Shown here piece after piece: positions 2,329 to 64,000 of a DNA stretch of 64,000 bases. This stretch comes from Carallia brachiata (taxonomy: Eukaryota; Streptophyta; Magnoliopsida; Malpighiales; Rhizophoraceae). The notes below the pieces were generated by a model, which made no database searches, was not told where the DNA came from, and worked only from the letters and a program-made list of their open reading frames with translations. Position 1 is the stretch's first letter; each line of letters begins with the position of its first letter. The position numbers and the translations under genes are program-made. The stretch spans positions 1,385,063 through 1,449,062 of the forward strand of contig JADCRB010000077.1 of assembly GCA_021464245.1 (NCBI GenBank), read 5' to 3'.

Positions 2329-2444
2329 GAGTTTCATTTCGTGGAATTGACCTCTTATCTCGGTTTTTTTTTTGGTGGATTGATATGTGATGGTGTAATG
2401 CCAATCGAGGATTATTATCAAATTTAATCTAATAAAATGGGCGA

Positions 2445-3791
2445 ACAAATATCTTAAAGTCAACCGGTTGTTGTTCTATTGAAGTTTGCAAAACTTTAAT
2501 TCTATTCATTGCGCGGTAACTTTTGGGGTTTGTAATACTAACAATGGCCGAATATGGGTACAACACGAGATTTAGGGGCATACCTGCTCTAGAGTATCAC
2601 ATGAATTTTATTTTGTGAAATAGGTAAGTCCGTAAAATTCTTTCTTCCTTTGGAGATTTTTTTTTATTTGACTTTAATGGAATTTAAACTCGAGACTTTC
2701 AGCCCTCAAAATAACTTCGATGTTATTGAAGTTACGGTCCATTGGTCATTTGGGACAATTTACATCAAGTCGTCAATTATGCATTTTCTATTTGTATATT
2801 AAAATAATGATCTATCAGCATTTAATATCCTTTTTGTTTCTTTTTCTGAACAGCAAGGGCATCCAATCAACAAGAATAGACACCCAACGAGCCAAAAATC
2901 CACCTTAGAATTGCCACAAGTCTAGCAATAACTCTACCCAAAAAACTAGAGTTCAAAAACTGAGACAAGAAGACAGCCCCTCACTAGCATTTGTATCCTG
3001 ACATTTGCAAAGATTTAGAGTTGTTTGTAGTCTAAGCCCGCTACAATTATCAAAATTTTTTTCTCGCAAAATAGTAGAGAAAATTAAGTAATATGGGCCT
3101 TAGTACATCTCATTCTCGTATTTTGATTGTTATAGGTATAATTTGTAATCTTAATTATAATTTATCTATATGTATGCCTTCAATTTTGGATTTGTTTTTG
3201 GTACAACTACTACGTTTTTCTTTAATCCTCTAGGCAAAAAAACATCTACTTGTGGACTCCCTATGCTAATCTTTGCAATTAGTTAAGTGCTAATTTACTC
3301 GCTTTTCATCACGATGCCAAATTTAATGTTGCATAAAAAAAAAGGACAAGTTGGACTTGGCCCCCTGCATGGAAAGTTGACCTTGAGAGTAAACAAAAGC
3401 TTTTTTTTTTCCTGAATGACGGAACTTTATATCTTGGAACAGGGTTCCATATAAAAGATCCTTGCTCCAATAAGTCTCTTGCGAGGTTACTGAACCGATG
3501 CATAATTTATTTTATAATTATTTTTTTATTTTTAAACTTGATAACATTAAACAATATTACTAGTAAAATTATTGTAAAGAAGTAAAACTTTAAAAAAAAT
3601 ATATCAATAAATTTTAGGCAATCACTTATCTATGTTAAGTATAATGATAATTTTATAAATTTCTGTTCAGTTAAATTGAAATTCTGCATAATAGAAAGGG
3701 AATAGAGGGCTTCTTTTATACAAAATGGAGATTTAATAGAAAAGAAAAAAAAAGAACAAAACACAATATTATTAAAGCCTATATCAACGAG
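2445..3791. repeat. Direct-repeat unit A2 (non-coding)
   Basis: This is the sister of 115-1,312 and of 53,115-54,478. It differs from unit A1 mainly by substitutions, homopolymer indels and a 155-bp insertion at 2,831-2,985. It contains no gene that I can support. Confidence 0.7.
2831..2985 (-). mobile_element. Short retroposon (SINE/truncated-LINE-like) with target-site duplication
   Basis: A 155-bp insertion begins with a T-rich run and CTGAACAGCAAGGGC, which is a reverse-oriented poly(A) end. It is flanked by AGCATTTAATATCC (2,817-2,830) and AGCATTTGTATCC (2,986-2,998). In the copy at 53,659 the right flank reads AGCATTTAGTATCC. Unit A1 carries the uninterrupted site near 490-503, so the insertion is proven by an internal empty-site comparison. 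Family not identified. Confidence 0.75.
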
Positions 3792-5172: not shown

Positions 5173-5284
5173 TTATGGATGCACTTTATAATCAATCAGA
5201 TTCTGCTATCAATCAATCTGCTACTGCTGCCAATCATTCTGTTACTATTACAAACCAATCAATTTCTACTTTTCTCAATCTCAG

Positions 5285-6124
5285 TGTAATGGGTAAATTT
5301 CGAGTCTAAAACAATTAAATTAAAAAATCCAAAAATAAATTACAAATAAAAATTTAAAATAAAAGAAAATTTACGTGGGGTCGATCTCCGTAGATCCTCC
5401 GATTAGTGTTCCTTTTTTGACTCTGTCAAGGGCTACACGAGCTTGATTTTGACAAAATAATTTCCACACCACAGCTTTATCTTGAACTGAGTAGACTGAA
5501 ACTGTATATGATTTGGACGTTTAGACTACGGTTAAGAACCGCAGAGACCTGATCTGAGTCGATTTGGCTTAATTTCACCGAGGGTCGACGGGACTTGTTC
5601 TCGGATGAGCTGTCTGGATTTTGCTGAGGGCCGTATGAGACTTAATCCCAGCCGAATTTGTAGTAATTTGATATTTTTAAATCTATATTTTCATAAATTC
5701 AGATCTAGAGCGATCCGAGAATATAAACCTAAAAATAATTTTAGAAATGGAAATAGCAAATTTTTTGGGGCTTACCCCTGAAATATCTCTCAAAAAGGAA
5801 TTAGGAGAGTATACTGCAGAGTAAAAGCACGTAGGAAAAGGAGAAATTTTCTTGAGAGATTTTCAAAATTTTCTTTTTCTCTCAAATTCTCTGAATTTTT
5901 TTGTTTACAGATTTGCTGAATCTTCAAGAGATTTTTTTATTTTTCACTCCTCTCTGCTTCTTTTTTTTTTCTTCACTTGCTTCTGTTTTTTTTTTTTCAA
6001 TTTTGGGGGAGGCCAATTTATAGGCCTCCCCCGCCTGCTTGCCACCAACCATTTGGTTGGTGGCGTTCAAGGTTGGCGGCTGCCAACCACTTCCCTTTTT
6101 TTTTTTAAAATTTATTTGTTTACA
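5285..6124 (-). repeat. Tat element 3' LTR
   Basis: This 840-bp LTR aligns with 14,825-15,619 throughout. It differs mainly by an extra ~40 bp (a CCAACCATTTGGTTGGTGG palindromic segment near 6,044-6,090). A GGAGGCC...GGCCTCC inverted repeat lies near 6,008-6,030. The element-side sequence read on the minus strand ends in GAAGTGGGGGCATT, a polypurine-rich tract directly before the LTR. Confidence 0.9.
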
Positions 6125-7018
6125 AATGCCCCCACTTCAAGGGTCAGTAAGGAAGAATTTTACAAAGATTATTCGAACCCGAGTCTTGAAGTTCAGTTTG
6201 AAACTTGGAAACGTCCTGATGAACATTGAATCTTGGAGTCTTCTATCTTTGAATATTTCTGCTGTTGTTGGATCACAATAGGAAACTGATACGATCTTGA
6301 GAAAGTTAATAGCCCAGCTAATATAGAAATTGAAGCCTTGGCTCCAGGTGCGGTCGAGCTTTCATAGCTCGCAAAGGCTGGTAAAGGTTCTTTGAAGTTC
6401 CAAAGCTCTGGTGAGGATGATCTGGTAGGCAAAGAACTTGAACCTCCCCAAGAGGAAGGCCCAGCACTTTGGAACTTCAAAACCGGCACACAGAGAGACT
6501 GATTGTAGTGATGATTCCCAAGTCTGCTTTGACGTAAGGAGAGTAGTTGGAACTTCCCTATACGTCGCCGCATCCGAAGGAAGATTAGGATGATTACAGT
6601 GTCTCATCCCTCTGTGGTAGATGTGAATTAAGGAGAGTTCCAACACCGATGGCGTTGGAGACTGAGTTTCGAGGGCTTTTAGGGATCCCTCGAGGAAGAC
6701 TACTCCTTCTTTTCTTAGCTCGTGCGCCTCCAACTTCTTGATCAAAGAACTTCCTGGGACAAGTGGAGAGACTAGCCATTTTCTTTTGAGAAGAAGAAGA
6801 ACTGAGGGGTGAGTATTATGACTCGGACATGCAGGATATATATACATAACATAAAGAGATTTTTTTTTTGAAAAGTCAAAAAGGAGGTACGCAGAATTGA
6901 GTAGGGTTCTCCACGTCCCTTTCCTCCATAAGAGACAAAAGAGGCAGCGGCTGATGCGGGTTACGAAAGTCGTTACCGTGTGCTGCCAAAGTCGTTGCAC
7001 CTTATCTTGTCGACCGTC
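6125..7018 (-). other. Tat element 3' region downstream of the WOX segment; unassigned frames
   Basis: This lies between the stop after the EAR-like tail and the polypurine tract. Two minus-strand frames stay open here (6,362-7,000 and 6,193-6,573). One shift of frame gives a stretch starting MASLSTCPRKFFDQEV (6,779 downward), with a Ser-rich segment and a QQQQK run further on. I recognise no domain. The copy at 56,819-57,709 has the same frames broken at different single bases. A 10-A run on the minus strand lies near 6,861-6,870. It may be an extra ORF or simply 3' untranslated sequence. Confidence 0.3.
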
Positions 7019-7626
7019 CTAGCGGGGCCCAAGGCGTAGCTCCAAGTCAAGATCGGCCTCGTCTGGTGGGCCGATGATGTTGACGTCACTTTCCGGCTGG
7101 TTGATGCTACCAGAATATTCTGTAAAGTTTCGCCGGAATGACTCCTTTCTGCTAGAAAAATTCCTCCTAGACTTAAGTATCTAGGAGGGATGAGGGATGA
7201 ACCCTTGGCTGACTCCGTAAGACCACCAGGACCAGTACGCATGCTCCCACAGGCTACGGCTTTGATTGTTATAACCTGAAGAGACCATTGTCGTGGTAGA
7301 ACTCGGACCTGCTTCATTTGAGGGCAAAGCTGTATCGGTGGGATCTACTATCGGAACGACAGACTGTTATTTGGAAAAAGCAGCTCTCAGTGCTGGTTTC
7401 TTCCCGCTTCTCTGATTCTGGAACCAATAAAACACATTTTACCTTCGATTGCCCTGAGCAGGCGCAATCGTGAGACAATTTGGTAAATCTGAAATGCATT
7501 AGGCATAATATCTCCATTGTTGTGGAAGACTTCCTCCAAAATTTGCAGTTGTGCCATGGTTGGTTGCCATCTTGTGCGAGGTGACCTTTCTTCTCCTTTG
7601 TGTTGAGGTTCTGCAACTGGTTCCAT
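7019..7626 (-). pseudogene. Captured WUSCHEL-related homeobox (WOX) coding segment with EAR-like C-terminus
   Basis: From an ATG at 7,626 (context AAAGATGG), residues ~17-80 form a WOX-type homeodomain. Helix 1 reads TRWQPTMAQLQILEEVF, and the loop is the expanded WOX form. Helix 3 carries IEGK followed, after one missing base near 7,434, by NVFYWFQNQRSGKK. The NVFYWFQN signature is diagnostic of plant WOX transcription factors and best fits the WUS/intermediate clades. About 12 codons later an in-frame TAA occurs. The same frame continues past it, and past a TAG, to DLDLELRLGPR and a stop at 7,019-7,021. LxLxL is an EAR-type co-repressor motif, known at the C-terminus of WUS- and SUPERMAN-type regulators. 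No WUS-box (TLxLFP) is visible. The homeobox is contiguous, with no intron. The segment lies inside the element, in the same sense as gag-pol. Broken as sequenced; the second copy (57,710-58,314) keeps the helix-3 frame but breaks elsewhere. Confidence 0.82.
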
Positions 7627-8200: not shown

Positions 8201-9480
8201 TTACACATAATACTGTTTCAGAAATTTACCATTGATTGGGCCGATTCGGACGCCTTCTTGGTCTGACAGCATGTAAGCGTTGTGAGTATAGGCCTCCTGC
8301 ACTAAGTATGGCCCATCCCATTTGGAAGTAAGCTTGTCACCAGGCCGATGCTTCATGTTGATGGGCCGTCGCACTGCAAGAACAAGGTCTCCAACTTGAA
8401 AAGATCGAGGGCGGACCCTGCGGTTGAACGTGTTGGTGAGCCGGGCTTGGTAGCACTCAAGTTGCTGTTGTGCTTCGAGCCTCCTTTCATCGAGGGCTTC
8501 TAACTCATCCAGACGTAGGCGAGCATTCTCCTCCTGTGTGAGTCCTTCCAGAACAGCCATGCGCAGAGATGGAATCTGTGTTTCCAACGGCAGTATTGCT
8601 TCGACACCGTAGACAAGTGAGTATGGCGTCGCCTGTGTTGGAGTCCGGTAAGTTGTACGATACGCCCATAATGCCTCCGGAATTCTGTCATGCCAATCTC
8701 TTTTGGATTTAGAGACTACCTTCCGCAACAGGTTGCATAAGGTCTTGTTGAATGCTTCAGCCAAGCCATTTGCTGGGGCATTGTACATGGATGACTTGTA
8801 CTGCTTGAACTTGAACTTCTCGCAGAGCTTGTCGATCAAGCTGTTGTAGAACTGCTTGCCATTATCAGTGATGATGAATCGAGGGACTCCATAGCGATAG
8901 ATCAGCTGAGTCCGGATGAAATTGGCAACATGCTCCTTCTTTACCTCTCTAAGTGGAATGGCTTCAGCCCATTTTGAGAAGTAGTCGGTTGCTGCGAGGA
9001 TGTACAGGTGACCCAGGGATGACTTTGGCAAGGGCCCCACTAAGTCGAGACCCCAAGCTTCAAAGGGCCAGGATGAGACAGTTGGATGCAGTGGCTCCGG
9101 TGGTTGATGTATGTAATTGCATGAAATTGACAAGCTTGACAAGTTTTAGCAAACTCAATCACGTACCAGTAGTATCCCATCCTTCTGAGTGGAAGTGCAA
9201 CTTAGGCCCGATTGATGTCCGCCACAAACACCAGAATGTGCTTCAGTGAGAGCTGTTTTGCCTCTTCATTGCTAGGCAGCGAAGAACTCCATCAAAAGAC
9301 CTTCGATACAGAGCATCCTTGAGATATATGAAGCGGGGAGCTCGTCGTTGAATTTCTGTCTTATGACGACGATCTTCGGGCAGCTTCCCGTGCTGTATAG
9401 TCAATGATTGGTTGGCGCCAATCCTCGTCCTCCGCGAGACGTACAGATACAGCGTTGGCTGCTGTAGTTTCTTCATCATC
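8201..9480 (-). pseudogene. Tat element integrase
   Basis: The 313-residue open frame (8,201-9,142) holds the integrase catalytic core with all three acidic residues in context: GLDLVGPLPKS, IITDNGKQFYNS and NGLAEAFNKT. The C-terminal part, VGDLVLAVRRPINMKHRPGDKL to KWDGPYLVQEAY, is typical of plant Ty3/gypsy integrases. Upstream (9,143-9,480) the HHCC zinc-binding part is frameshifted; the second copy shows it better as AHLGVCGGHQSG...CQACQ. The function would be insertion of element cDNA. The core is intact but the full polyprotein is broken. Confidence 0.88.
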
Positions 9481-9539: not shown

Positions 9540-10007
9540 TTGCAAGAGAAGTGGCCAGGTTAGCCAACGCGTCTGCCTGAGTGTTTTCTCGTCGAGGCAC
9601 ATGCTCCAAGGTGATGCTTTCAAATTCATCCATTAGCTGTCGAGCACGTTGATGGTAAGGCGCAAGGTCCTCTTTCTTACATCATACAATCCTGTAAGTT
9701 GGTTGATGACGAGCTGGGAATCTCCATGGACTTCTATAGTTGGAATCTTCATATCGACAGCCATTTGAAGACCAATGATCAAAGCCTGGTATTCAGCAAC
9801 ATTATTTGAACATAACTCACCGAGAATGATAGCATATGGTAGTATTTGTCGTTGAGGAGTGACAAACACTATGCCGGCACCAGCACCATCACGCCTTGCT
9901 GCACCATCAAAGAACATCGTCCATGGTGGCAGTGTCTCAATGTAAAAGACCTCTTCATCTGGAAGATCATCTGTGAACTCCCAATCTGACGGAAGGGTGA
10001 TCTGCAA
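9540..10007 (-). pseudogene. Archaeal-like RNase H domain of the Tat element
   Basis: MFFDGAARRDGAGAGIVFV, NNVAEYQALIIGLQMA and VHGDSQLVINQL give the D-E-D catalytic layout, followed after a frameshift near 9,640 by VPRRENTQADALANLAT. This second RNase H, placed between the retroviral-type RNase H and integrase, is characteristic of Tat-lineage elements. The copy at 60,100-60,717 reads through the frameshift position as one frame, so the break here may be a single-base error. Confidence 0.88.
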
Positions 10008-11600
10008 GGAAGTCTGCTAGAGCTTGTCCTTTGACTGCTTTTTGAGGCACGTAGACAATGTCGTAGCTTTGTAGGATTACTGCCCACTTGGCAAGTCGTC
10101 CTGACAAGATTGGTCTAGATAAGATATATTTGACAGGATCAGCTCTGGCAATGAGACGTACCGTGTGAGCTTGCATGTAGTGCCTCAGCTTGTCAATGGC
10201 AAAGAACAGTGCTAGACATGTCTTTTCAATGGGCGAATAACTCAGCTCCGGACCGTTTAGTGTTCTGCTCAAGTAGTACAGGGCAACTTCCTTTCCCTGC
10301 TCGTTTTCCTGTGCAAGCAAGGCTCCCAAAGATCTTTCCTGCGCTGCAATGTAGAGAATCAACGACTTTCCTTGAATTGGAGCTCCCAGGACTGGTGGAT
10401 TGGAAAGGTACTTCTTTATGCTCTCAAAGGCTTTGCTGCAAGCTTCGTCCCACTCGAAGTTGACATCCTTCTTCATCAACCGATGGAAAGGTTGACATCT
10501 CCCAGCTAAATTGGAGATGAAACGGCGAATGTAGGCCAGCTTTCCTTGTAGACTTCGCAGCTCGTGCAGGTTTTTAGGTTCAGGCATCTTTTGAATTGCC
10601 TCAACCTTTGACTGATCAACTTCGATTCCACGATGGCGCACCACGAACCCAAGAAACTTTCCTGATGTGACACCGAATGCGCACTTGAGAGGGTTCATTT
10701 TGAGCTGATGCCTCCGAAGTCTTTCGAACACTGTCTTGAGATCCTCGAGGTGGTCTTTGCGCTTCTTAGTCTTTACAACTAAGTCATCAACATAACATTC
10801 TACAATCTTGTGCAGCATGTCATCAAAAATTTTTTGCATAGCACGTTGATAAGTGGCGCCAGCATTTTTAATCCAAACGGCATAACTTTGTAGCAGTATA
10901 TACCTTTTGGGGTGCGGAATGCTGTCAACTCCTCGTCTTCTGGTGCCATTCTGATTTGGTTATAGCCTGAAGAACCATCCATGAAGGACAATGCTTCGTG
11001 ACCCGTTGTTGCATCGACTGTGATCTCCGTTATGGGCAAAAGGAAAGTCATCTTTCGGGCAGGCCTGTTAAGATCTCGAAAATCAACACATACCCTCAAC
11101 TGTCCATTCTTCTTTCTTACCGGGACAATGTTGGCAATCCACGTTGGGTAGGTGACCTCTCGGATGAAGCCAGCATTGATCAGCTTGTTCACCTCCTCCT
11201 CGATTTGTGGAATGAGTTCCGGGCGGAACCGTCGTTGTGGCTGCTTGACAGAACGAACACCCTTCTTTACTGCTAGACGATGCACCGCAATTTTTGGGTC
11301 AAGTCCAGGCATTTCTTTGTAACTCCATGCGAACACGTCCCTGTATTGACTTAATACCTGAACATATTCTTGCTCTTCTTCTGCAGTAAGTAAAGCACTT
11401 ACAAATGTAGGTCGAGGATCTTCCGGAGAGCCAAGATTGACCTCCTTGAGTTCATCAACAGTTGCTTGGCCACCATCTTCAAGTTCCGGGGGAGCCTCCT
11501 TCACTTCACCGTCTGATGAGTCAGACTCAGCCTCCTCGCTAATTGTGACATGAAATGTAGAACCTCTGACTTCACCTTCTTTGTTTGACTGGATAAGCCT
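9967..11600 (-). pseudogene. Tat element reverse transcriptase and retroviral-type RNase H
   Basis: RT motifs are visible in order: NKLINAGFIREVTYPTW, RVCVDFRDLN, LSFMDGSSGYNQIRM, YKVMPFGLK, and the catalytic CYVDDLVV (YVDD at 10,783-10,794). The connection and RNase H follow (ILYIAAQERSLGALL, ALYYLSRTLNGPELSY, HTVRLIARADP). Just after MPFGLK one A is missing (near 10,880), shifting the frame before NAGATYQRAM. The same deletion is present in the second copy, so it is a real shared lesion rather than a random read error. The protein converts element RNA to cDNA in the cytoplasmic particle. Confidence 0.92.
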
Positions 11601-12720
11601 GTCTTGTTTGGTGGTGGTGATGGCACGTGCATCAGCTGCTCGGCTTCGGCTCTTTAGCGTGATCCGCACAGGTGACTTCTCCTGATAGCCTAAGCCAGGT
11701 CGGGACTGTGATGTTTGAGAAGCAGCGCCATGTGTGGACGGCAGCGTACCCATTGTGCTCGGGTTTGAGAAGTCATAGCCCGCCTTTGCCAAAAGCTTGT
11801 ATGCATTAGGATCAAATCCTTCATGTGTTCTTCTTTCTGGAAGTGAGCCGCCTTCGACTGCTGCTGTGTGTGGTTTGACGAAACCTTTTAATGATTTTGA
11901 AGACAAAACCGGCTCAATCTTTGGTATCGGCAGAGTGTAAGTCCCTTCAGGTTGTGCAGCTCCTTTGTTTGGGTTGGCTATGTCCTTGCTCCTGTTTAGG
12001 ATCAATACAATAAGAGAAAGGGGGTTGACCTTCTGAGCGTCGTGACTTCGGCACATAGCGTAGGACTGGAGTGGAGCTTGAAGATGCAACATCCTTCGGA
12101 CGAAGTTCAGCAGGCTGTGGCAGCTTTTCATTTGTTGGAGCCTGGTTGGCATTGGCAGGTTCTTCGACAGCTTTTCCCTTTTTGTGGATGCCCCCAGTCC
12201 AAGTAGCTTTTGATGGAATGATCTCCGGATTGTCTGTGTCGGTGTAGAAGACTGCATCCGCCAAATGTGATTCAGCATCATCGAACGGCTTTAAGTCAGC
12301 ATTGACCTTTTGAACGCCACCATTGTAGTACTTGAAGCACTGATGCAGGCTTGAGAGCACAACTCCATTTCCATGAATCCACGGTCGTCCTAGCAACATC
12401 TTATATGTGGTACGTGCATCATCACGTGAAATAGAGTGCTAGAAGTGAGATTACCGATAGTTAGCTCCAAGCGAATCATCCCAATTGCTTTCTGTCCTCC
12501 TTGATTAAAGCCATGAATCATCAAGCGGCTGTCTGATAATTCATCAATGCCGATGCCGAGCTCCTTTATGGTGGATTTTGGGATAATATTGACTGCTGAA
12601 CCATCGTCGATCAGAATACGTCGGACCTTCTGTTTCTCACATAGCCTGATACATACAGCGGCCGATTGTGGGGTTTGGACCCCAGCAGGAGATCCTCATC
12701 TGAAAATGAGATAGCAGAGT
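11601..12720 (-). pseudogene. Tat element aspartic protease and linker
   Basis: The active-site segment RILIDDGSAVNIIP is encoded near 12,579-12,619, with Tat-type DDGS in place of DTGA. It is followed by ELGIGIDELSDSRLMIHGFNQ and the flap-side LLGRPWIHGNGVVLSSLHQ near 12,340-12,400. A poorly conserved acidic and proline-rich linker leads to RT. Frames are interrupted near 12,430, 12,640 and 11,950. In the second copy (62,594-63,553) the protease is one continuous 319-residue frame. Confidence 0.85.
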
Positions 12721-12729
12721 AACATCCGA

Positions 12730-14304
12730 CGTGATTTTGGGCCGTGTTGCTCCGCTGAGTTAGAATCATTTGATGGCTGTGATTCAGCTGAGGTCTGGAG
12801 AGTATTGCTGACTTGATTTTGCCACACTTCTGTTGATTGCAAAGCTATAAACAGCTGAGGGTTAGCGAGAAGGGTTTGGAGAGCTTCATATACCTTCTCC
12901 GTTGTCGACTTTTTGTTGTCGAGCGGCTCCTCCTTACGGTGTGTCACCTCTTCTGATGGTTTTGAAGTGATGGTGGTCTGGTTTGCAGGTTATGCCTTCC
13001 TGGTCCAGAATGATTTTATTCTGGCTTTTGAGCTTCATGATTAGCTCCTTCAGGACGAAACACTTCTCGGTTGGATGACTTACTATCCGGTGATATTTGC
13101 AGAATCTCGGATCGCTGACTCGATCCTTTTCATTCGGCCGCTTGCACTCTGGGAGTTCGATCAGCTTCGCCTCCAAGAGTTGTTCAAGAATGTCGGGGAC
13201 GTCTGAGTCGGGGAATGGATACTGCTTTGCTCCAACTCTCGCAATGTCACCTTCCGCCTTTCCTGTTGTTTTGGCTGAGTTATTTGGGTCGGAGGATTTA
13301 CCTTAGCTTTGGCGCCCACTTTTACTGGTGCGGCTTCAACAGTCATCACTTCTTTCCTTTTCCGGAGCTGTTGGGTTTCTTAATCTCCCTTCTGCCCCCT
13401 TGCTGGTCCAACTGGATGGGAACCGTGCCTCCGGAAGTCTGGATGCTTATCTCCATATCATGTGCGCGGGTCGCCAGTTCTTCGAAGTTCGGGGTTTGAC
13501 ACCCTGCAGGATGTATAACAGCTCCCAATGCATTCCCTGGATGCACATCTCCACGGCAGAAGTCTCCGTCAGGCGATCTTTGCAGTCCAAGCTGAGGGCA
13601 CGCCATCTGTTGATGTATTCGACAACGGGCTCTCCTTTCCTTTGTTTGGTGCTGGTAAGCTCCATCATACTTACCGTCCTTCGAGTGCTGAAAAATCTGT
13701 TGAGGAACTCTCGTTGTAGCTGTTCCCAACTGTCGATCGATTCTGGTTCAAGATTTATGAACCAGGTGAAAGCGGTCTCCCTGAGTGAACGAACAAACTG
13801 CTTCACCAAGAGATCTCCATAAGTCCCTGCGTTGTTGCAGGTTTCAACGAAGTGGGCGATGTGCTGTTTGGGATCGCCTCGTCCGTCGAATTGTTGAAAT
13901 TTGGGCGGCTGGTAGCCCAAGGCATGTTGAGACTTTCGATCCGTCTGGTGTACGGTTTGACGTACATCTGTGATCCTTGGAAGGATGTAGCTTGTTGCAG
14001 TCGGATCGTATTGGCTATCATTTCCTGCAATTGTTGAACAGATAGCGAAGCTACAGAATTTGAGGGTGGCAGCTGTGTAGAACTACCTGGTCGCTTTTCT
14101 GCAGGAAGACGTCGGCTGGTGTGGCTTCTGGAGTGAAACCGGGTGGATATGGTTGCTCCTCGCGGATTCGGGATCAATTGGATCGGGGCTTTTCCTTTGA
14201 GAGCGGCGATCTGTTGATCTTTTTCCTCCACGACTCTGATCAGCTGCAAAATTTGTTCTCCAATTCTGAAATCTTTCCTCTGTGCTGGTTGTGTTGGTCA
14301 TCAT
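12730..14304 (-). pseudogene. Tat element gag
   Basis: It starts at an ATG at 14,304 (MMTNTTSTEER). After one indel comes a short coiled coil, LIRVVEEKDQQIAALK. The capsid-like retrotransposon gag core is at 13,447-13,920: KFQQFDGRGDPKQHIAHF, TWFINLEPESIDSWEQL, then FFSTRRTVSMMEL. A zinc-knuckle-like CKYHRIVSHPTEKC lies near 13,050-13,100. Four or more frame breaks occur, several in homopolymers. Gag would form the cytoplasmic virus-like particle. Confidence 0.85.
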
Positions 14305-14824: not shown

Positions 14825-15619
14825 TGTAACGTAAATTTCGAGCTAAAACAATTAAACTCGAAAATACAAAAATAAATTACAAATAAAAATTTAAAATAAA
14901 AGAAAATTTACGTGCGGTCGATCTCCGTAGATCATCTGATTAGTGTTTCTTTTTTGACTCCATCAAGGGCTGCACGAGCTTGATCTTGACAGAAATAATT
15001 TCCATAACGTTTCTTGAACTGGGTAGACTGAAACTGTCTGATTTGGACGTTTAGACTACGGTTAAGAACCGCAGAGACCTGATCTGAGTCGATTTGGCTT
15101 AATTTCACCGAGGGTCGAAGGGACTTGTTCTCGAATGAGCTGTCTTGATTTTGCTGAGGGCCGTATGAGGCTTAATCCCAGCCGAATTTGTAGTAATTTG
15201 ATATTTTTAGATCTATATTCTCATAAATTCAGATCTAGAGCGATTCGATAATATAAACTTAAAAATAATTTTAGAAATGGAAACAGCAAATTTTTTGGAG
15301 CTTACCCCTGAAATATCTCTAAAAAAGGAATTAGGAGAGTATACTGCAGAGTAAAATCACGTAGGAAAAGAAAATTTTCTAGAGACTTTCAAAATTTTCT
15401 TTTTCTCTCAAATTCTCTGAATTTTTCCGTTTACAGATTTGCTGAATCTTCAAGAGATTTTTTTATTTTTCACTCCTCTCTACTTCTTTTTTTTTTCTTC
15501 GCTTGCTTTTCTTTCTTTTTTTTTTTTTTTCAATTTGGGGGGAGGCCAATTTATAGGCCTCCCCCGCCTGCCTGCCACCAACCAATTCCCTTTTTTTTTT
15601 TTTAATTTATTTGTTTACA
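14825..15619 (-). repeat. Tat element 5' LTR
   Basis: This 795-bp LTR matches 5,285-6,124. It begins TGTAACGTAAATTTCGAG and ends TTTGTTTACA, followed by the CTCAG duplication. Differences from its partner include scattered substitutions and the absence of the ~40-bp palindromic segment, so the element is not a very recent insertion. Confidence 0.9.
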
Positions 15620-15624
15620 CTCAG

Positions 15625-17763: not shown

Positions 17764-19568
17764 ATGTAGAGTTTTTTGAGCATGCATTTCTTATGAGAAA
17801 GAGCCAGCACAATCCTTGGCCCTGAAGTTGAGTTGGAGAAAGAGTCCAATAGCAGCCCACCAGAACTAGAGATAATGAGGAGTAAGAGACAAATGATAGA
17901 AAAGATGTTTGGAGATGACTATTACACTTTCGCGGTAAACAATGATCCCTTAACTAACTGAAGCTATATCATCTAGTGATGCAGGTCCATGGATAGAAGA
18001 TATACAGAGTGAAATAGATTCTTTAAATCAGAATAGAATATGGAGATTGGTTGATTTTTCGGTAAGTACCAAGCTTATAGGTTGCAAATAGATCTTTAGA
18101 AAGAAATATAGACCAAATGGATTTATTGATAAAGTACAAGGCTAAACTTGTAGCCAAAGGGTATACATAAAGAAGAATATTGATTATTTTGATACTTTTA
18201 CTCCAGTTGCAAGCATAGCATCTCTAAGAGTATTAATAGCATTAGCGTCTGCCTATAATCTTATTGTTTATCAAATGGATGTTAAAACTAATTTTCTGTA
18301 TGGAGATCTTAAAGAGGAGATTTATATGACCAACGTGAAGGCTGTGTTGTCCCTGGCCAAGAGAAGAAGGTATGTAAGCTTGTTAAATCATTGTATGGGT
18401 TAAAACAGGCACCTAAGCAATGGCACGTGAAGTTTGATAATGTTTTAGTTTACGGGTTTTCGATTGTTGGAGTTGATAAATGTGTTTTATACTAAGATTG
18501 AAAATGATACATGTGTTATTATCTGCCTATATGTTGATCACATGCTCATATTTAGTTGTGATATAGGATTTATAGCTACAACAAAATCCATGCTTGCATC
18601 ATATTTTGACATAAAAGATTAAGGAGAGACGATCATTTTAAGAGTGAAGATCAGTAGAATTCGTAATAGCATATTCTTCACAAGAGCACTATATAGAGAA
18701 AATCCTCAAAAAATATAAACATTATGATGTTAAACCACTCTCTACTTCCTTTGATGCTAATGTGAATTCATTAGATAATAGTGGTAAATATATATCTCAG
18801 TCTTCATAGACACAGATTATTGGCAGTTTAATGCATCAAATGAATTTTACTCATCTTAAAATTGCTTATGTTGCGTGTAGATTGAGTAGATATACTCACA
18901 ATATGGGCTATGACCATTAGAATGCCTTGACGAGGATACTGAAATATTTGAAAGGCACTATGAACTATGGCATTTTCTATAGTGGGTTTCTCGCTGTACT
19001 AAAATGATACAGCGATGTTAACTGGATCTCTGATTCAAATGAGATAAAATCCACAAGTGGCTATATACTTACCCTTGGAAGTGGAGGCGATGACTTGGAA
19101 GTCTTCCAAGCAACAATTAATTGCTTGGTCCCACTATAGAATATGAGTTTATAGCCTTAAAAGATGGCTAGTGTGGAGGCAGATTGACTGAGAAATTTCT
19201 CGATGGATATTCCATTATGGTAAAATCGACACTATCAATGTTAATGCATTGTGACAGTCAGGCCACTATTGCTCGTTTGAAAAGTAAATCATAGAATGGA
19301 AAGAATAGACATGTTCATTTGCGACATGAATTAGTAAAGCAGATGTTGAATAATTGAGTGATATCATTTGATTTTGTAAGGTCAGAGATAAACCTGGCAA
19401 ATCCTCTAACCAAGCCACTAGGCAGAAAGCTAGTGGAAGAAACATAGAGGGGAATGACTTATGCCTATTGAGAATGGTCAAAAGTGATGAGAACCCAACC
19501 TATGTAATTGAGATCCTTTGAAGTAGGTTCATATGGGTAACAACAAGTCACTATTGACTGTGTGTTGC
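17764..19568 (+). pseudogene. Copia RT-RNase H, first (left contig) copy
   Basis: RT motifs include QMDVKTNFLYGDLKEEIYM, KSLYGLKQAPKQWHVKF and YVDHMLIF, where the catalytic YVDD has become YVDH. RNase H remnants follow to about 19,450. From 17,889 the sequence repeats at 19,570-21,260. This copy carries extra indels, for example TAACTAACTGAAGC against TAACTAACTCTGAAGC, consistent with a lower-quality contig end. Confidence 0.8.
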
Positions 19569-55987: not shown

Positions 55988-57709
55988 TGTAATGGGTAAA
56001 TTTCGAGTCTAAAACAATTAAATTAAAAAATCCAAAAATAAATTACAAATAAAAATTTAAAATAAAAGAAAATTTACGTGGGGTCGATCTCCGTAGATCC
56101 TCCGATTAGTGTTCCTTTTTTGACTCTGTCAAGGGCTACACGAGCTTGATTTTGACAAAAATAATTTCCACAGCTTTATCTTGAACTGAGTAGACTGAAA
56201 CTGTATATGATTTGGACGTTTAGACTACGGTTAAGAACCGCAGAGACCTGATCTGAGTCGATTTGGCTTAATTTCACCGAGGGTCGACGGGACTTGTTCT
56301 CGGATGAGCTGTCTGGATTTTGCTGAGGGCCGTATGAGACTTAATCCCAGCCGAATTTGTAGTAATTTGATATTTTTAAATCTATATTTTCATAAATTCA
56401 GATCTAGAGCGATCCGAGAATATAAACCTAAAAATAATTTTAGAAATGGAAATAGCAAATTTTTTGGGGCTTACCCCTGAAATATCTCTCAAAAAGGAAT
56501 TAGGAGAGTATACTGCAGAGTAAAAGCACGTAGGAAAAGGAGAAATTTTCTTGAGAGATTTTCAAAATTTTCTTTTTCTCTCAAATTCTCTGAATTTTTT
56601 TGTTTACAGATTTGCTGAATCTTCAAGAGATTTTTTTATTTTCACTCCTCTCTGCTTCTTTTTTTTCTTCACTTGCTTCTGTTTTTTTTTTTCAATTTTG
56701 GGGGAGGCCAATTTATAGGCCTCCCCCGCCTGCTTGCCACCAACCATTTGGTTGGTGGCGTTCAAGGTTGGCGGCTGCCAACCACTTCCCTTTTTTTTTT
56801 TAAATTTATTTGTTTACAAATGCCCCCACTTCAAGGGTCAGTAAGGAAGAATTTTACAAAGATTATTCGAACCGAGTCTTGAAGTTCAGTTTGAAACTTG
56901 GAAACGTCCTGATGAACATTGAATCTTGGAGTCTTCTATCTTTGAATATTTCTGCTGTTGTTGGATCACAATAGGAAACTGATACGATCTTGAGAAAGTT
57001 AATAGCCCAGCTAATATAGAAATTGAAGCCTTGGCTCCAGGTGCGGTCGAGCTTTCATAGCTCGCAAAGGCTGGTAAAGGTTCTTTGAAGTTCCAAAGCT
57101 CTGGTGAGGATGATCTGGTAGGCAAAGAACTTGAACCTCCCCAAGAGGAAGGCCCAGCACTTTGGAACTTCAAAACCGGCACACAGAGAGACTGATTGTA
57201 GTGATGATTCCCAAGTCTGCTTTGACGTAAGGAGAGTAGTTGGAACTTCCCCTATACGTCGCCGCATCCGAAGGAAGATTAGGATGATTACAGTGTCTCA
57301 TCCCTCTGTGGTAGATGTGAATTAAGGAGAGTTCCAACACCGATGGCGTTGGAGACTGAGTTTCGAGGGCTTTTAGGGATCCCTCGAGGAAGACTACTCC
57401 TTCTTTCTTAGCTCGTGCGCCTCCAACTTCTTGATCAAAGAACTTCCTGGGACAAGTGGAGAGACTAGCCATTTTCTTTTGAGAAGAAGAAGAACTGAGG
57501 GGTGAGTATTATGACTCGGACATGCAGGATATATATACATAACATAAAGAGATTTTTTTTTTGAAAAGTCAAAAAGGAGGTACGCATAATTGAGTAGGGT
57601 TCTCCACGTCCTTTCCTCCATAAGAGACAAAGAGGCAGCGGCTGATGCGGGTTACGAAAGTCGTTACCGTGTGCTGCCAAAGTCGTTGCACCTTATCTTG
57701 TCGACCGTC

Positions 57710-58314
57710 CTAGCGGGGCCCAAGGCGTAGCTCCAAGTCAAGATCGGCCTCGTCGGTGGGCCGATGATGTTGACGTCACTTTCCGGCTGGTTGATGCTAC
57801 CAGAATATTCTGTAAAGTTTCGCCGGAATGATCCTTTCTGCTAGAAAAATTCCTCCTAGACTTAAGTATCTAGGAGGGATGAGGGATGAACCCTTGGCTG
57901 ACTCGTAAGACCACCAGGACCAGTACGCATGCTCCCACAGGCTACGGCTTTGATCGTTATAGCCTGAAGAGACCATTGTCGTGGTAGAACTCGGACCTGC
58001 TTCATTTGAGGGCAAAGTTTGTATCGGTGGATCTACTATCGGAACGACAGACTGTTATTGGAAAAAAGCAGCTCTCAGTGCTGGTTTCTTCCCGCTTCTC
58101 TGATCTGGAACCAATAAAACACATTTTTTCCTTCGATTGCCCTGAGCAGGCGCAATCGTGAGACAATTTGGTAAATCTGAAATGCATTAGGCATAATATC
58201 TCCATTGTTGTGGAAGACTTCCTCCAAAATTTGCAGTTGTGCCATGGTTGGTTGCCATCTTGTGCGAGGTGACCTTTCTTCTCCTTTGTGTTGAGGTTCT
58301 GCAACTGGTTCCAT
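57710..58314 (-). pseudogene. Captured WOX homeobox segment with EAR-like tail (second copy)
   Basis: Same start (ATG at 58,314) and TRWQPTMAQLQILEEVF helix 1. Here the helix-3 frame is uninterrupted through IEGKNVFYWFQ, then one base is missing where 7,019-7,626 has the Asn codon. The early TAA after the homeodomain is present in both copies. The DLDLELRLGPR tail and its stop (57,710-57,712) are preserved. Frame-breaking single-base differences fall at different places in the two copies, so several of them are likely sequencing errors, whereas the shared TAA is probably real. Low-complexity repeat at 58,440-58,760 and T-rich tract at 58,765-58,905 follow. Confidence 0.82.
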
Positions 58315-58904
58315 CTTTCTTGTGGCAAAGGAGCAAAGGTCTGGTAGGTGGTGAAGATCGGTTGAGACTGATGTTGAGTTTCAGACTCAAACCCTCCATC
58401 GCTTTTATATTTTTGGGTTGTTCACAGTTTATGCTCATGCGGGCCAGGAGTTGGATTGGATTTTGAACTTTGGTTCTGGACTGTGTCTGGAACGTAGAAT
58501 TTTTGGGTTTTAGGGCTTTGGATTGGATTGGGGTCGAGTGTTTGGGCTTCTAGACTTGGATTTTTGGATTTGGGCTTGAGTTTTCTGAATTGGGCTCAAG
58601 TGTTTGGGCTTGGATTTTTGGGTTTGGGCTTGAGTGTTTGGGTCTTGGACTTGGATTTGGTTTTCGGGCTTTTGAGTTGGGCTTGTGTTTTCTGATTTGG
58701 GCTCAAGTGTTTGGGCTTGAACTTTTGGGTTTGGATTTTCGCTTGGATTTTCAGATCGAGACTTTTAAACTTTTTTCTTTTTGATTTTTTTTCTTTTTTT
58801 ATGATTTTTTTGATTTTTCTATTTTTTTTTTTTTTCTTTTTTTTTTTTTAATTTTTTTTAATTTTTTAATTTTTTTATTTTTTTTGATATTTTTTTTAAA
58901 ATAT

Positions 58905-60190
58905 TTACACATAATACTGTTTCAGAAATTTACCATTGATCGGGCCAATTCGGAGGCCTTCTTGGTCTGACAGCATGTAAATATTGTGAGTATAGGCCTC
59001 CTGCACTAAGTATGGCCCATCCCATTTGGAAGTAAGCTTGTCACCAGGCCGATGCTTCATGTTGATGGGCCGTCGTACTGCAAGAACAAGGTCTCCAACT
59101 TGAAAAGCTCGAGGGCGGACCCTGCGGTTGAACGTGTTGGTGAGCCGGGCTTGGTAGCACTTAAGTTGCTGTTGTACTTCGAGCCTCCTTTCATCGAGGG
59201 CTTCTAACTCCTCCAGGTAGGCGATCATTCTCCTCCTGTGTGAGTCCTTCCAGAACAGCCATGCAGAGAGATGAAATCTGTGTTTCCAAAGGTAGTATTG
59301 CTTCAACACCGTAGACAAGTGAGTATGGCGTTGCCTGTGTTGGAGTCTGGTAAGTTGTACGATACGCCCATAATGCCTCTGGAATTCTGTCATGCCAATC
59401 TCTTTTTGATTTAGAGACTACTTTCCGCAATAGGTTGCATAAGGTCTTGTTGAATGCTTCAGCCAAGCCATTTGCCGGGATATTGTACATGGATGACTTG
59501 TACTGCTTGAACTTGAACTTCTCGCAGAGCTTGTCGATCAAGCTGTTGTAGAACTGCTTGCCATTATCAGTGATGATGAATCGAGGGACTCCATAGCGAT
59601 AGATCAACTGAGTCCGGATGAAATTGGCAACATGCTCCTTCTTTACCTCTCTCAGTGAAATAGCTTCGGCCCATTTTGAGAAGTAGTCGGTTGCTGCGAG
59701 GATGTAAAGGTGACCTAGGGATGACTTTGGTAAGGGCCCCACTAAGTCAAGAACCCAAGCTTCAAAGGGTTAGGATGAGACAGTTGGATGCAATGGCTCC
59801 GGTGGTTGATGTATGTAATTGGCATGAAATTGACAAGCTTGACAAGTTTTAGCAAACTCAATCGGCCAATAGTATCCCATCCTTCTGAGCTGGAAGTGCA
59901 ACTTAGGCCCCGATTGATGTCCGCCACAAACACCTAAATGTGCTTCAGCGAGAGCTTGTTTTGCCTCTTCATTGTCTAGGCAGCAAAGCAAATCTCCATC
60001 AAAAGATCTTCGATACAGAGCATCCTTGAGATATATGAAGCGGGGAGCTCGTCGTTGAATTTCTGTCTTATGACAACGATTTTCGGGCAGCTTCCCATGC
60101 TATAAATAGTCAATGATTGGTTGGCGCCAATCCTCATCCTCCGCGAGACGTATAGATACAGCGTTGGCTGCTGTAGTTTCTTCATCATCC
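58905..60190 (-). pseudogene. Tat integrase (second copy)
   Basis: The core (59,191-59,742) has ITDNGKQFYNS and NGLAEAFNKT. The first acidic region is truncated by a frame break just upstream. The zinc-binding part is readable at 59,770-59,991 (AHLGVCGGHQSG, CQACQFHAN). A frameshift near 59,215 splits off the C-terminal 162-residue frame. Confidence 0.85.
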
Positions 60191-60717
60191 TTCTGTGGCA
60201 CTATCCATTTCTGGCATACAGCAACAACTGTAGCCTGGATTTCTGACTTTGCAAGAGAGGTGGCCAAGTTAGCCAACGCGTCTACCTGAGTGTTTTCTCG
60301 TCGAGGCACATGCTCCAAGGTGATGCTTTCAAATTCATCAATTAGCTGTCCAGCACGTTGATGGTAAGGCGCAAGATCCTCTTTTTTTACATCATACAAT
60401 CCTATAAGTTGGTTGATGACGAGTTGGGAATCTCCACGGACTTCTATAGTTGGAATTTTCATATCGACAGCCATTTGAAGACCAATGATCAAAGCCTGGT
60501 ATTCAGCAATATTATTTGAACATAAATCACCGAGAATGATAGCATATGGTAGTATTTGTCGTTGAGGAGTGACAAATACTATGCCAGCACCAGCACCATC
60601 ACGTCTTGCTGCACCATCAAAGAACATCGTCCATGGTGGCAGTGTCTCAACGTAAAAGACCTCTTCATCTGGAAGATCATCTGTGAACTCCCAATCTGAC
60701 GGAAGGGTGATCTGCAA
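60100..60717 (-). pseudogene. Tat archaeal-like RNase H (second copy)
   Basis: One continuous 205-residue frame holds MFFDGAARRDGAGAGIVFV, NNIAEYQALIIGLQMA, VRGDSQLVINQLIG and VPRRENTQVDALANLAT. It is better preserved than the copy at 9,540-10,007. Confidence 0.88.
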
Positions 60718-62340
60718 GGAAGTCTGCTAGAGCTTGTCCTTTGACTGCTTTTTGAGGCACGTAGACAATGTCGTAGCTTTGTAGGATTACTGCCCACTTG
60801 GCAAGTCGTCCTGACAAGATTGGTCTAGATAAGATATATTTGACAGGATCAGCTCTGGCAATGAGACGTACCGTGTGAGCTTGCATGTAGTGCCTCAGCT
60901 TGTCAATGGCAAAGAACAGTGCTAGACATGTCTTTTCAATGGGCGAATAACTCAGCTCCGGACCGTTTAGTGTTCTGCTCAAGTAGTACAGGGCAACTTC
61001 CTTTCCCTGCTCGTTTTCCTGTGCAAGCAAGGCTCCCAAAGATCTTTCCTGCGCTGCAATGTAGAGAATCAACGACTTTCCTTGAATTGGAGCTCCTAGG
61101 ACTGGTGGATTGGAAAGGTACTTCTTTATGCTCTCAAAGGCTTTGCTGCAAGCTTCGTCCCACTCGAAGTTGACATCCTTCTTCATCAACCGATGGAAAG
61201 GTTGACATCTCCCAGCTAAATTGGAGATGAAACGGCGAATGTAGGCCAGCTTTCCTTGTAGACTTCGCAGCTCGTGCAGGTTTTTAGGTTCAGGCATCTT
61301 TTGAATTGCCTCAACCTTTGACTGATCAACTTCGATTCCACGATGGCGCACCACGAACCCAAGAAACTTTCCTGATGTGACACCGAATGCGCACTTGAGA
61401 GGGTTCATTTTGAGCTGATGCCTCCGAAGTCTTTCGAACACTGTCTTGAGATCCTCGAGGTGGTCTTTGCGCTTCTTAGTCTTTACAACTAAGTCATCAA
61501 CATAACATTCTACAATCTTGTGCAGCATGTCATCAAAAATTTTTTGCATAGCACGTTGATAAGTGGCGCCAGCATTTTTAATCCAAACGGCATAACTTTG
61601 TAGCAGTATATACCTTTTGGGGTGCGGAATGCTGTCAACTCCTCGTCTTCTGGTGCCATTCTGATTTGGTTATAGCCTGAAGAACCATCCATGAAGGACA
61701 ATGCTTCGTGACCCGTTGTTGCATCGACTGTGATCTCCGTTATGGGCAATGGAAAGTCATCTTTCGGGCAGGCCTGTTAAGATCTCGAAAATCAACACAT
61801 ACCCTCAACTGTCCATTCTTCTTTCTTACCGGGACAATGTTGGCAATCCACGTTGGGTAGGTGACCTCTCGGATGAAGCCAGCATTGATCAGCTTGTTCA
61901 CCTCCTCCTCGATTTGTGGAATGAGTTCCGGGCGAACCGTCGTTGTGGCTGCTTGACAGAACGAACACCCTTCTTTACTGCTAGACGATGCACCGCAATT
62001 TTTGGGTCAAGTCCAGGCATTTCTTTGTAACTCCATGCGAACACGTCCCTGTATTGACTTAATACCTGAACATATTCTTGCTCTTCTTCTGCAGTAAGTA
62101 AAGCACTTACAAATGTAGGTCGAGGATCTTCCGGAGAGCCAAGATTGACCTCCTTGAGTTCATCAACAGTTGCTTGGCCACCATCTTCAAGTTCCGGGGG
62201 AGCCTCCTTCACTTCACCTCTGATGAGTCGACTCAGCCTCCTCGCTAATTGTGACATGAAATGCAGAACCTCTGACTTCACCTTCTTTTTTGACTGGATA
62301 AGCCTGTCTTGTTTGGTGGTTGGTGATGGCACGTGCATCA
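60677..62340 (-). pseudogene. Tat RT and RNase H (second copy)
   Basis: The 290-residue frame 60,677-61,549 (CYVDDLVVKTKKRKDHLEDL to the RNase H end) is identical in translation to 9,967-10,839. The N-terminal RT part (61,510-62,340) shares the missing base after MPFGLK and has additional single-base breaks near 61,750 and 61,933. Confidence 0.9.
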
Positions 62341-62593
62341 GCTGCTCGGCTTCGGCTCTTTAGCGTGATCCGCACAGGTGACTTCTCCTGATAGCCTAAG
62401 CCAGGTCGGGACTGTGATGTTTGAGAAGCGGCGCCATGTGTGGACGGCAGCGTACCCATTGTGCTCGGGTTTGAGAAGTCATAGCCCGCCTTTGCCAAAA
62501 GCTTGTATGCATTAGGATCAAATCCTTCATGTGTTCTTCTTTCTGGAAGTGAGCCGCCTTCGACTGCCCCCGTGTGTGGTTTGACGAAGCCTT

Positions 62594-63553
62594 TTAATGG
62601 TTTTGAGACAAAACCGGCTCAATCTTTGGTATCGGCAGAGTGTAAGTCTCCTTCAGGTTGTGCAGCTCCTTTGTTTTGGGTTGGCTATGACCTTGCTCCT
62701 GTTTAAGATCAATACAATAAGAGAAAGGGGGTTGACCTTCTGAGCGTCGTGACTTCGGCACATAGCGTAGGACTGGAGTGGAGCTTGAAGATGCAACATC
62801 CTTCGGACGAAGTTCAGCAGGCTGTGGCAGCTTTTCATTTGTTGGAGCTTGGGGTTGGGCATTGACAGGTTTTTCGACAGCTTTTTCCTTTTTGTGGATG
62901 CCCCCAGTCCAAGTAGCTTTTGATGGAATGATCTCCGGATTGTCTGTGTCGGTGTAGAAGACTGCATCCGCCAAATGTGATTCAGCATCATCGAACGGCT
63001 TTAAGTCAGCATTGACCTTTTGAACGCCACCATTGTAGTACTTGAAGCACTGATGCAGGCTTGAGAGCACAACTCCATTTCCATGAATCCACGGTCGTCC
63101 TAGCAACATCTTATATGTGGTACGTGCATCAATCACGTGAAATAGAGTGCTAGAAGTGAGATTACCGATAGTTAGCTCCAAGCGAATCATCCCAATTGCT
63201 TTCTGTCCTCCTTGATTAAAGCCATGAATCATCAAGCGGCTGTCTGATAATTCATCAATGCCGATGCCGAGCTCCTTTATGGTGGATTTTGGGATAATAT
63301 TGACTGCTGAGCCATCGTCGATCAGAATACGTCGGACCTTCTGTTCTCTCACATAGCCTGATACATACAGCGGCCGATTGTGGGGTTTGGACCCCAGCAG
63401 GAGATCCTCATCTGAAAATGAGATAGCAGAGTAACATCCGACGTGATTTTGGGCCGTCTGTTGCTCCGCTGAGTTAGAATCATTTGATGGTGATTCAGCT
63501 GAGGTCTGGAGAGTATTGCTGACTTGATTTTGCCACACTTCTGTTGATTGCAA
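62594..63553 (-). pseudogene. Tat protease (second copy), continuous frame
   Basis: A 319-residue open frame with RRILIDDGSAVNIIPKS, SDSRLMIHGFNQGGQKAIG and KMLLGRPWIHGNGVVLSS. It is uninterrupted here, unlike 11,601-12,720, so the breaks in the first copy are probably recent changes or errors. Confidence 0.88.
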
Positions 63554-63643
63554 AGCTAAAACAGCTGAGGGTTAGCGAGAAGGGTTTGGAGAGCTTCATA
63601 TACCTTCTCCGTTGTCGACTTTTTGTTGTCGAGCGGCTCCTCC

Positions 63644-64000
63644 TTATGTGTCACCTCTTCTGATGGTTTTGAAGTGATGGTGGTCTGGTTTGCAGGTTAT
63701 GCCTTCCTGGTCCAGAATGATTTTATTCTGGCTTTTGAGCTTCATGATTAGCTCCTTCAGGACGAAACACTTCTCGGTTGGATGACTTACTATCCGGTGA
63801 TATTTGCAGAATCTCGGATCGCTGACTCGATCCTTTTCATTCGGCCGCTTGCACTCTGGGAGTTCGATCAGCTTCGCCTCCAAGAGTTGTTCAAGAATGT
63901 CGGGGACGTCTGAGTCAGGGAATGGATACTGCTTCTGCTCCAACTCTCGCAATGTCACCTTCCGCCTTTCCTGTTGTTTTGGCTGAGTTATTTGGGTCGG
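63644..64000 (-). pseudogene. Tat gag 3' part (second copy), cut by window end
   Basis: Encodes KVTLRELEQKQYPFPDSDVP, ILEQLLEAKLIELPECKR and the zinc-knuckle-like CKYHRIVSHPTEKCFVLKEL. The N-terminal gag lies beyond the window. Confidence 0.82.

Follow-up and report, generated by a model that had tools for sequence, protein, structure and literature searches.

The locus

The window analysed here is a 64,000-nucleotide stretch of the Carallia brachiata genome (assembly GCA_021464245.1, contig JADCRB010000077.1, positions 1,385,063 to 1,449,062), and our subject is a long terminal repeat (LTR) retrotransposon within it that carries a gene resembling WUSCHEL (WUS). An earlier note on this DNA had described a WOX homeobox inside a Tat-type element, in the sense of gag-pol and between integrase and the 3' LTR, at 7019..7626. 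The homeobox was borne out and can be narrowed to the WUS type, and its placement and coordinates proved exact. The features of the element in the window are the following.

5280..5284, no strand: target site duplication CTCAG, left, read directly; partner at 15620-15624
5285..6124, minus: 3' LTR; 93% identity with the 5' LTR over 767 aligned columns, Kimura two-parameter (K2P) distance 0.0515
6125..7018, minus: spacer from the WUS-like gene to the 3' LTR; includes the A-run 6869-6860 and an unconstrained small frame, ORF2
7019..7626, minus: decayed WUS-like accessory gene, from ATG to stop; homeodomain frameshift, internal stop and small indels
7031..7051, minus: EAR-like tail LDLELRL
7121..7131, minus: WUS box remnant; intact form ETLPLFP
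7385..7581, minus: homeodomain region (Pfam Homeodomain), placed by alignment with the open copy L014
7716..7721 (approximate), minus: TATA-like box, candidate own promoter, about 95 nt 5' of the ATG
8201..9145, minus: integrase (Pfam rve, E=7.6e-11)
9633..10016, minus: second RNase H of the aRH type (Pfam RVT_3, E=8.1e-13)
9967..10959, minus: end of reverse transcriptase and first RNase H (Pfam RVT_1, RT_RNaseH, 1.7e-23)
10800..12290, minus: start of reverse transcriptase (Pfam RVT_1, E=8.3e-11)
13447..14082, minus: gag (Pfam Retrotrans_gag, E=1.6e-15)
14825..15619, minus: 5' LTR, from the LTR pair comparison
15620..15624, no strand: target site duplication CTCAG, right, read directly
55988..64000, minus: another copy of this element, truncated at the end of the window; WUS-like piece at 58078-58380

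Read along the minus strand, the element runs through gag, reverse transcriptase, RNase H, second RNase H and integrase in frames that are partly broken, and the Pfam order is RT_RNaseH, RVT_3, rve. A second RNase H between the first and the integrase is described for Tat elements of the Ogre/Retand type (PMC6317226). Pfam found no chromodomain family in the integrase frame 8201-9145 and no protease family in the element frames submitted. With its two RNase H domains, no chromodomain found, its LTR pair and the CTCAG duplication that the note had seen at the LTRs, the element is a Tat-type Ty3/gypsy retrotransposon.

The WUS-like gene has its ATG at 7626 and its stop at 7021-7019, and lies between the integrase, which ends at 8201, and the 3' LTR. 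As the note had it, NVFYWFQN and LELRL are in one frame with a stop between them. Small indels removed the WUS box from this copy, so this third motif, an addition to the note, could not have been seen there. The homeobox profile search that the note had proposed gave a Pfam Homeodomain match for the 101-amino-acid frame 7692-7387 at E=2.8e-4 and 21.1 bits, just below the cut-off of 22.9 because of the frame breaks inside the homeodomain; in the open copy L014 the same family matches at E=2.2e-12 and 47 bits. The second copy in the window is 97.8% identical to the first over 8052 columns, and its WUS-like piece is broken too, with NVFYWFQ still in frame.

Copies across the genome

The host genome searched comprises 337.5 Mb in 164 contigs, and all copy numbers given here are lower bounds. 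A protein search with the 101-amino-acid piece gave at least 150 scored places (the best 150 of 2098 candidates), and querying with the 46 C-terminal residues of an open copy gave the best 150 of 1314 candidates, all scored. In a third search, with a second homeodomain subtype (B, described below), 96 of the best 150 scored places were identical to the query over all 68 residues and 11 further places, among the matches listed, reached 97-99% over the full length; many of the subtype-B matches lie within open frames of 225-241 codons. A comparison by eye showed no overlap between these 107 places and the list from the 101-amino-acid search, giving at least 257 places in total (150 and 107). The expectation that the segment would be common to other family members is thus supported by three genome searches with at least 150 scored places each, and tblastn against the host, also proposed in the note, returned both the many other copies with WUS-like cargo and two host WUS loci. 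The element was not found in viral contigs.

For comparison we used 105 rows covering the window and other copies, of which 66 were picked by homeodomain similarity and 39 by the C-terminus. Open copies encode a single protein of about 200-209 amino acids with a homeodomain, the WUS box ETLPLFP and a tail LDLELHL or LDLELRL. Of the 66 homeodomain-picked copies, 36 have a frame that stays open for 195-215 amino acids. When 10 copies were picked for subtype B or intermediates, seven ran for 203-209 amino acids, two with an altered tail.

Identity of the encoded protein

The homeodomain of L014 aligns with the solved WUSCHEL homeodomain 6RY3 without a gap (E=2.6e-18), and that of STENOFOLIA aligns with one gap. 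The domain is 66 residues long in the element, as it is in each of the 120 listed WUS proteins, against 65 in the other host WOX genes found (7 of 7); the one-residue insertion is described as specific to WUS within the WOX family (PMC7203112). In the protein database search 419 of 508 candidates had E-values of 1e-3 or less, and the 120 matches listed all carry PF00046 and are annotated, for instance, as WUSCHEL, homeobox or hypothetical protein, with P0008 alone labelled an oxygenase. The best of these has 46% identity over 44% of the query, and no close relative is among the 120, where identity never exceeds 53%.

The residues reported to read bases in WUS, R38, Q89, N90 and R94 (PMC7203112), are kept in 104, 103, 104 and 100 of the 105 rows. 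WUS has 52 homeodomain columns with conservation of 95% or more, and the element shares 31 of them. At the S36 position 100 rows have arginine. In WUS itself the S36R change is reported to retain TGAA binding and to shift the TAAT complex to a mostly monomeric form (PMC7203112). Beyond the homeodomain, ETLPLFP is present in 82 of the 105 rows, as it is in 10 of the 11 plant WUS proteins shown, and the tail LDLEL[HR]L in 94. The latter has the letters LxLxL, which we take to define the EAR motif.

The 66-residue homeodomain and the ETLPLFP box point to WUS as the donor, in preference to other WOX genes. A homeodomain tree, the WOX phylogeny called for in the note, could be built and put the element on a very long branch, with no placement inside or outside the WUS clade.

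Probable capture, subtypes and age

Compared with WUS proteins by tblastn, the two host WUS loci (L029 and L030) fall into three blocks with two gaps, which we read as introns; at L029 one alignment spans the first gap. The element gene is a single uninterrupted frame over all motifs. Set against the three-block host loci, this single frame without introns makes a spliced host WUS mRNA the most likely source of the cargo, the donor introns being taken from the tblastn blocks, and it supports the mRNA origin that the note had suggested.

A-runs flank the WUS-like gene, in the window on the minus strand at 8190-8082 and 6869-6860, and the downstream run is longer in several other copies. A run 3' of the gene is present in the window and in six other copies, and could be the fossil poly(A) tail of the captured mRNA; A-runs occur elsewhere in the element too.

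The second homeodomain subtype has an altered recognition helix (VYFWFQNRRHRE and similar) and was found in L118, L126, L129, L134-L140 and L143, of which L137 and L139 look like mosaics or recombinants of the subtypes within the homeodomain. Between subtype A (L014) and subtype B (L118) the homeodomain differs by a synonymous distance (dS) of 0.49 and a nonsynonymous distance (dN) of 0.125, with amino acid changes below expectation (p=0.002). Published substitution rates are 7e-9 to 1.3e-8 per site and year. At these rates the subtypes would have split roughly 19-35 million years ago, a rough figure given that the domain is short and recombination between subtypes is visible.

Selection

Substitutions were counted by parsimony on a FastTree tree and expressed as omega, the ratio of nonsynonymous (N) to synonymous (S) change. 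A first run on the 66 copies picked by homeodomain similarity is biased toward low omega and was given no weight. The homeodomain-blind sample consists of the 39 copies picked by the C-terminus only. In it the inner branches of the homeodomain carry 22 N and 26 S changes and no stops (omega 0.39, p=0.001), whereas the terminal branches carry 62 N, 21 S and 8 stops (omega 1.38). With all 105 copies included, omega on inner branches is 0.35 for the homeodomain (p=2e-5) and 0.71 for the linker (p=0.039). As controls, the integrase (19 rows) gave 0.02 on inner and 0.19 on terminal branches, and ORF2 (22 rows) gave 1.86 and 0.93, which is no constraint. From the inner-branch constraint and the terminal decay it follows that the homeodomain has been maintained during the activity of the element, though less strictly than the integrase: it is under purifying selection on inner branches and decays after insertion.

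ORF2 was considered as a second cargo gene and rejected, having no Pfam or PADLOC family, no homologue and no constraint. We also considered homopolymer assembly errors as the general cause of the frame breaks and rejected them, since 27 of 113 one-base deletions fall inside runs of at least 3 bases, which make up 15% of the bases, a modest excess. Some breaks may nevertheless be assembly errors, given that 16 of the 19 integrase rows have indels, yet terminal omega there is only 0.19.

Insertion history and promoter

Upstream sequence was available for 12 copies, of which 8 have a true LTR pair, 3 have none and 1 has low-complexity matches only. Exact 5-bp target duplications, read from the flanks, are present in 6 of the 8 copies with an LTR pair, and all are different. 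The K2P distance within LTR pairs is 0.002-0.055, the minimum being 2 differences in 859 sites, and is 0.051 in the window copy. The family has therefore made many independent insertions and has moved recently. A processed pseudogene at a single locus, the outcome that the note had set against its own reading, is excluded by the many copies and the differing target duplications.

Among the 3' LTRs of L011-L023 the U3 is strongly divergent between copies while the remainder is 87-94% alike. Several LTR types share one internal region.

Of 26 copies, 24 have a TATAAA at -95 relative to the ATG and the remaining two have it at -117 or -120. This is suggestive of a promoter belonging to the WUS-like gene, but as a candidate only, since that stretch resembles itself across copies anyway.

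The window also holds other repeats. At 17889-19451 and 19570-21142 there is a direct repeat of about 1.7 kb with most blocks 95-100% alike, which resembles a tandem duplication within a different repeat. Two stretches at 107-1199 and 2440-3683, each about 1.1-1.2 kb long, are 83-96% alike and 2.3-2.5 kb apart, and are perhaps the LTR pair of another short element.

Interpretation

Our preferred reading is that the element encodes a functional transcription factor, to which we give a probability of roughly 0.68. In this account an ancestral Tat-type Ty3/gypsy element would have taken up a spliced host WUSCHEL mRNA and since retained the gene in an accessory role, placed between integrase and 3' LTR. 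That a WUS gene was captured and then maintained we hold with high confidence. The product would be a small WUS-like transcription factor with a homeodomain expected to bind TGAA-type sites; the recruitment of co-repressors would fall to the WUS box and the EAR-like tail. If expressed, it would most likely act in trans, on the target genes of host WUS in meristem cells, the source of germline insertions. For repression in trans we see about even odds.

WUS is reported to maintain shoot stem cells and to take part in the exclusion of RNA viruses from them, and the germline derives from these cells (PMC10589665). A WUS-like repressor made by the element could thus alter target genes in the place where new insertions become heritable. 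More tentatively, and with doubt prevailing, the benefit to the element may have been more germline copies: a lineage would have carried a WUSCHEL-derived factor for tens of millions of years, acting on shoot-meristem stem-cell identity or on WUS-controlled defence, while its homeodomain subtypes exchanged segments by recombination.

Several observations weigh against a functional factor. In the homeodomain-blind set only 8 of the 39 copies are open and 31 are broken. The element homeodomain is identical to that of host WUS (L029) at only 33 of 66 residues, the F101 dimer position has phenylalanine in 0 of the 105 rows, and the Pfam EAR profile matches below its cut-off and short of E 0.01. 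Constraint on the homeodomain is far weaker than on the integrase (inner omega 0.02), and over all 105 copies the C-terminal part with both repression motifs has an inner omega of 0.78 (p=0.21). Additionally, the selection counts ignore recombination, although it is visible in L137 and L139.

The same C-terminal result bears on the suggestion of the note that the protein is a dominant-negative or decoy regulator, which would occupy WUS sites or partners without repressing and so weaken host WUS. A constrained homeodomain next to a C-terminal part without significant constraint speaks for it, and the replacement of the F101 dimer residue in 105 of 105 rows points the same way. Under a simple loss of repression, however, the persistence of the WUS box in 82 rows and of the EAR-like tail in 94 is unexpected, and with most copies retaining both motifs we do not favour this explanation and consider it unlikely. 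We think it equally unlikely that the protein regulates the element itself, binding its own LTR and switching its own transcription like a retroviral DNA-binding regulator. The LTRs of L013 and L021 do have more close TGAA pairs than shuffled sequences (6 against 1.4 and 7 against 1.7, p about 0.01), but the other 7 of the 9 LTRs, that of the window included, have no excess and three of these have no pairs at all, so that a general LTR self-switch is not supported.

A passenger without function, simply carried along, would explain the 31 broken copies, and captured genes in plant retroelements are usually reported in one or few copies (PMC7264820). We regard it as improbable, since it does not account for inner branches under constraint with no stops beside decaying terminal ones, for a dS of 0.49 against a dN of 0.125 between subtypes, or for the open frames in the recently multiplied subtype. 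The least probable proposal, also from the note, has small RNAs derived from the segment acting against host WUS genes. The high copy number speaks for it, but the longest exact DNA words shared by any of the 105 copies with the two host loci are only 14 and 12 nt, below small-RNA length.

Comparison with known systems

The functional transcription factor that we prefer has a close counterpart in host WUSCHEL. The two share a 66-residue homeodomain, the DNA-reading residues, the ETLPLFP box and an LxLxL tail in the same order; the element gene differs in being shorter, in having no introns, in its 33 of 66 identical homeodomain residues with L029, in the change of S36 to R and in the loss of F101.

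Among transposons, Ty3/gypsy elements of Phalaenopsis are described as carrying an AlkB-type 2-ODD m6A demethylase (PMC9289625). They too are a plant Ty3/gypsy lineage that has fixed a cellular-type domain in many copies, but theirs is an RNA-modifying enzyme in 25-kb orchid elements, whereas the element studied here carries a stem-cell transcription factor. The same source lists other extra domains in Gypsy elements, including YgdH (LONELY GUY proteins) in Citrus, B3 in Aegilops tauschii, PMD and G-patch. These are likewise host-type regulatory domains, two of them plant developmental or DNA-binding, but no homeobox is listed with them, and the words homeobox, homeodomain and WUSCHEL are absent from PMC9289625. 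The additional open reading frames of Tat/Retand elements, such as Grande gene23 and those of TRP28, are described as antisense and without a known cellular parent (PMC7264820, PMC11963269), in contrast to the sense orientation and WUS parentage of this gene. The extra gene of Grande is similar in that a nuclear protein and an own promoter are reported for it (PMC7264820). By position the WUS-like gene fits the env-like category of plant retroelements, defined as a sense open reading frame between pol and the 3' LTR (PMC7264820). An Env-like membrane protein was not indicated, as Pfam gave only Homeodomain and a sub-threshold EAR match, with no dedicated membrane-segment prediction made. In the literature searched we found no report of a WUS or homeobox gene in a plant retrotransposon, though subscription papers or preprints may hold one.

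The extra frames of Tat elements have long been described without clear origin or function, and for the WUS cargo the origin is plain. Only by entering certain cells can a plant transposon be inherited, and this cargo is a master regulator of just those cells, so that active manipulation of the meristem by plant retrotransposons becomes a testable question. On the practical side, WOX gene surveys in this lineage may mistake copies of the element for genes, and the WUS homeodomain that the element offers, naturally diverged and with at least two subtypes, should be useful for work on DNA specificity.

Some animal retroviruses are known to carry captured cell-fate genes. The resemblance, a retroelement with a regulator derived from a host mRNA, would be one of working principle only, and no infectious stage is known for the plant element. 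Should the element act in the meristem, it would be the equivalent in plants of a retrovirus with a cell-fate gene, but one whose gene has been stably kept by the element, long maintained by selection.
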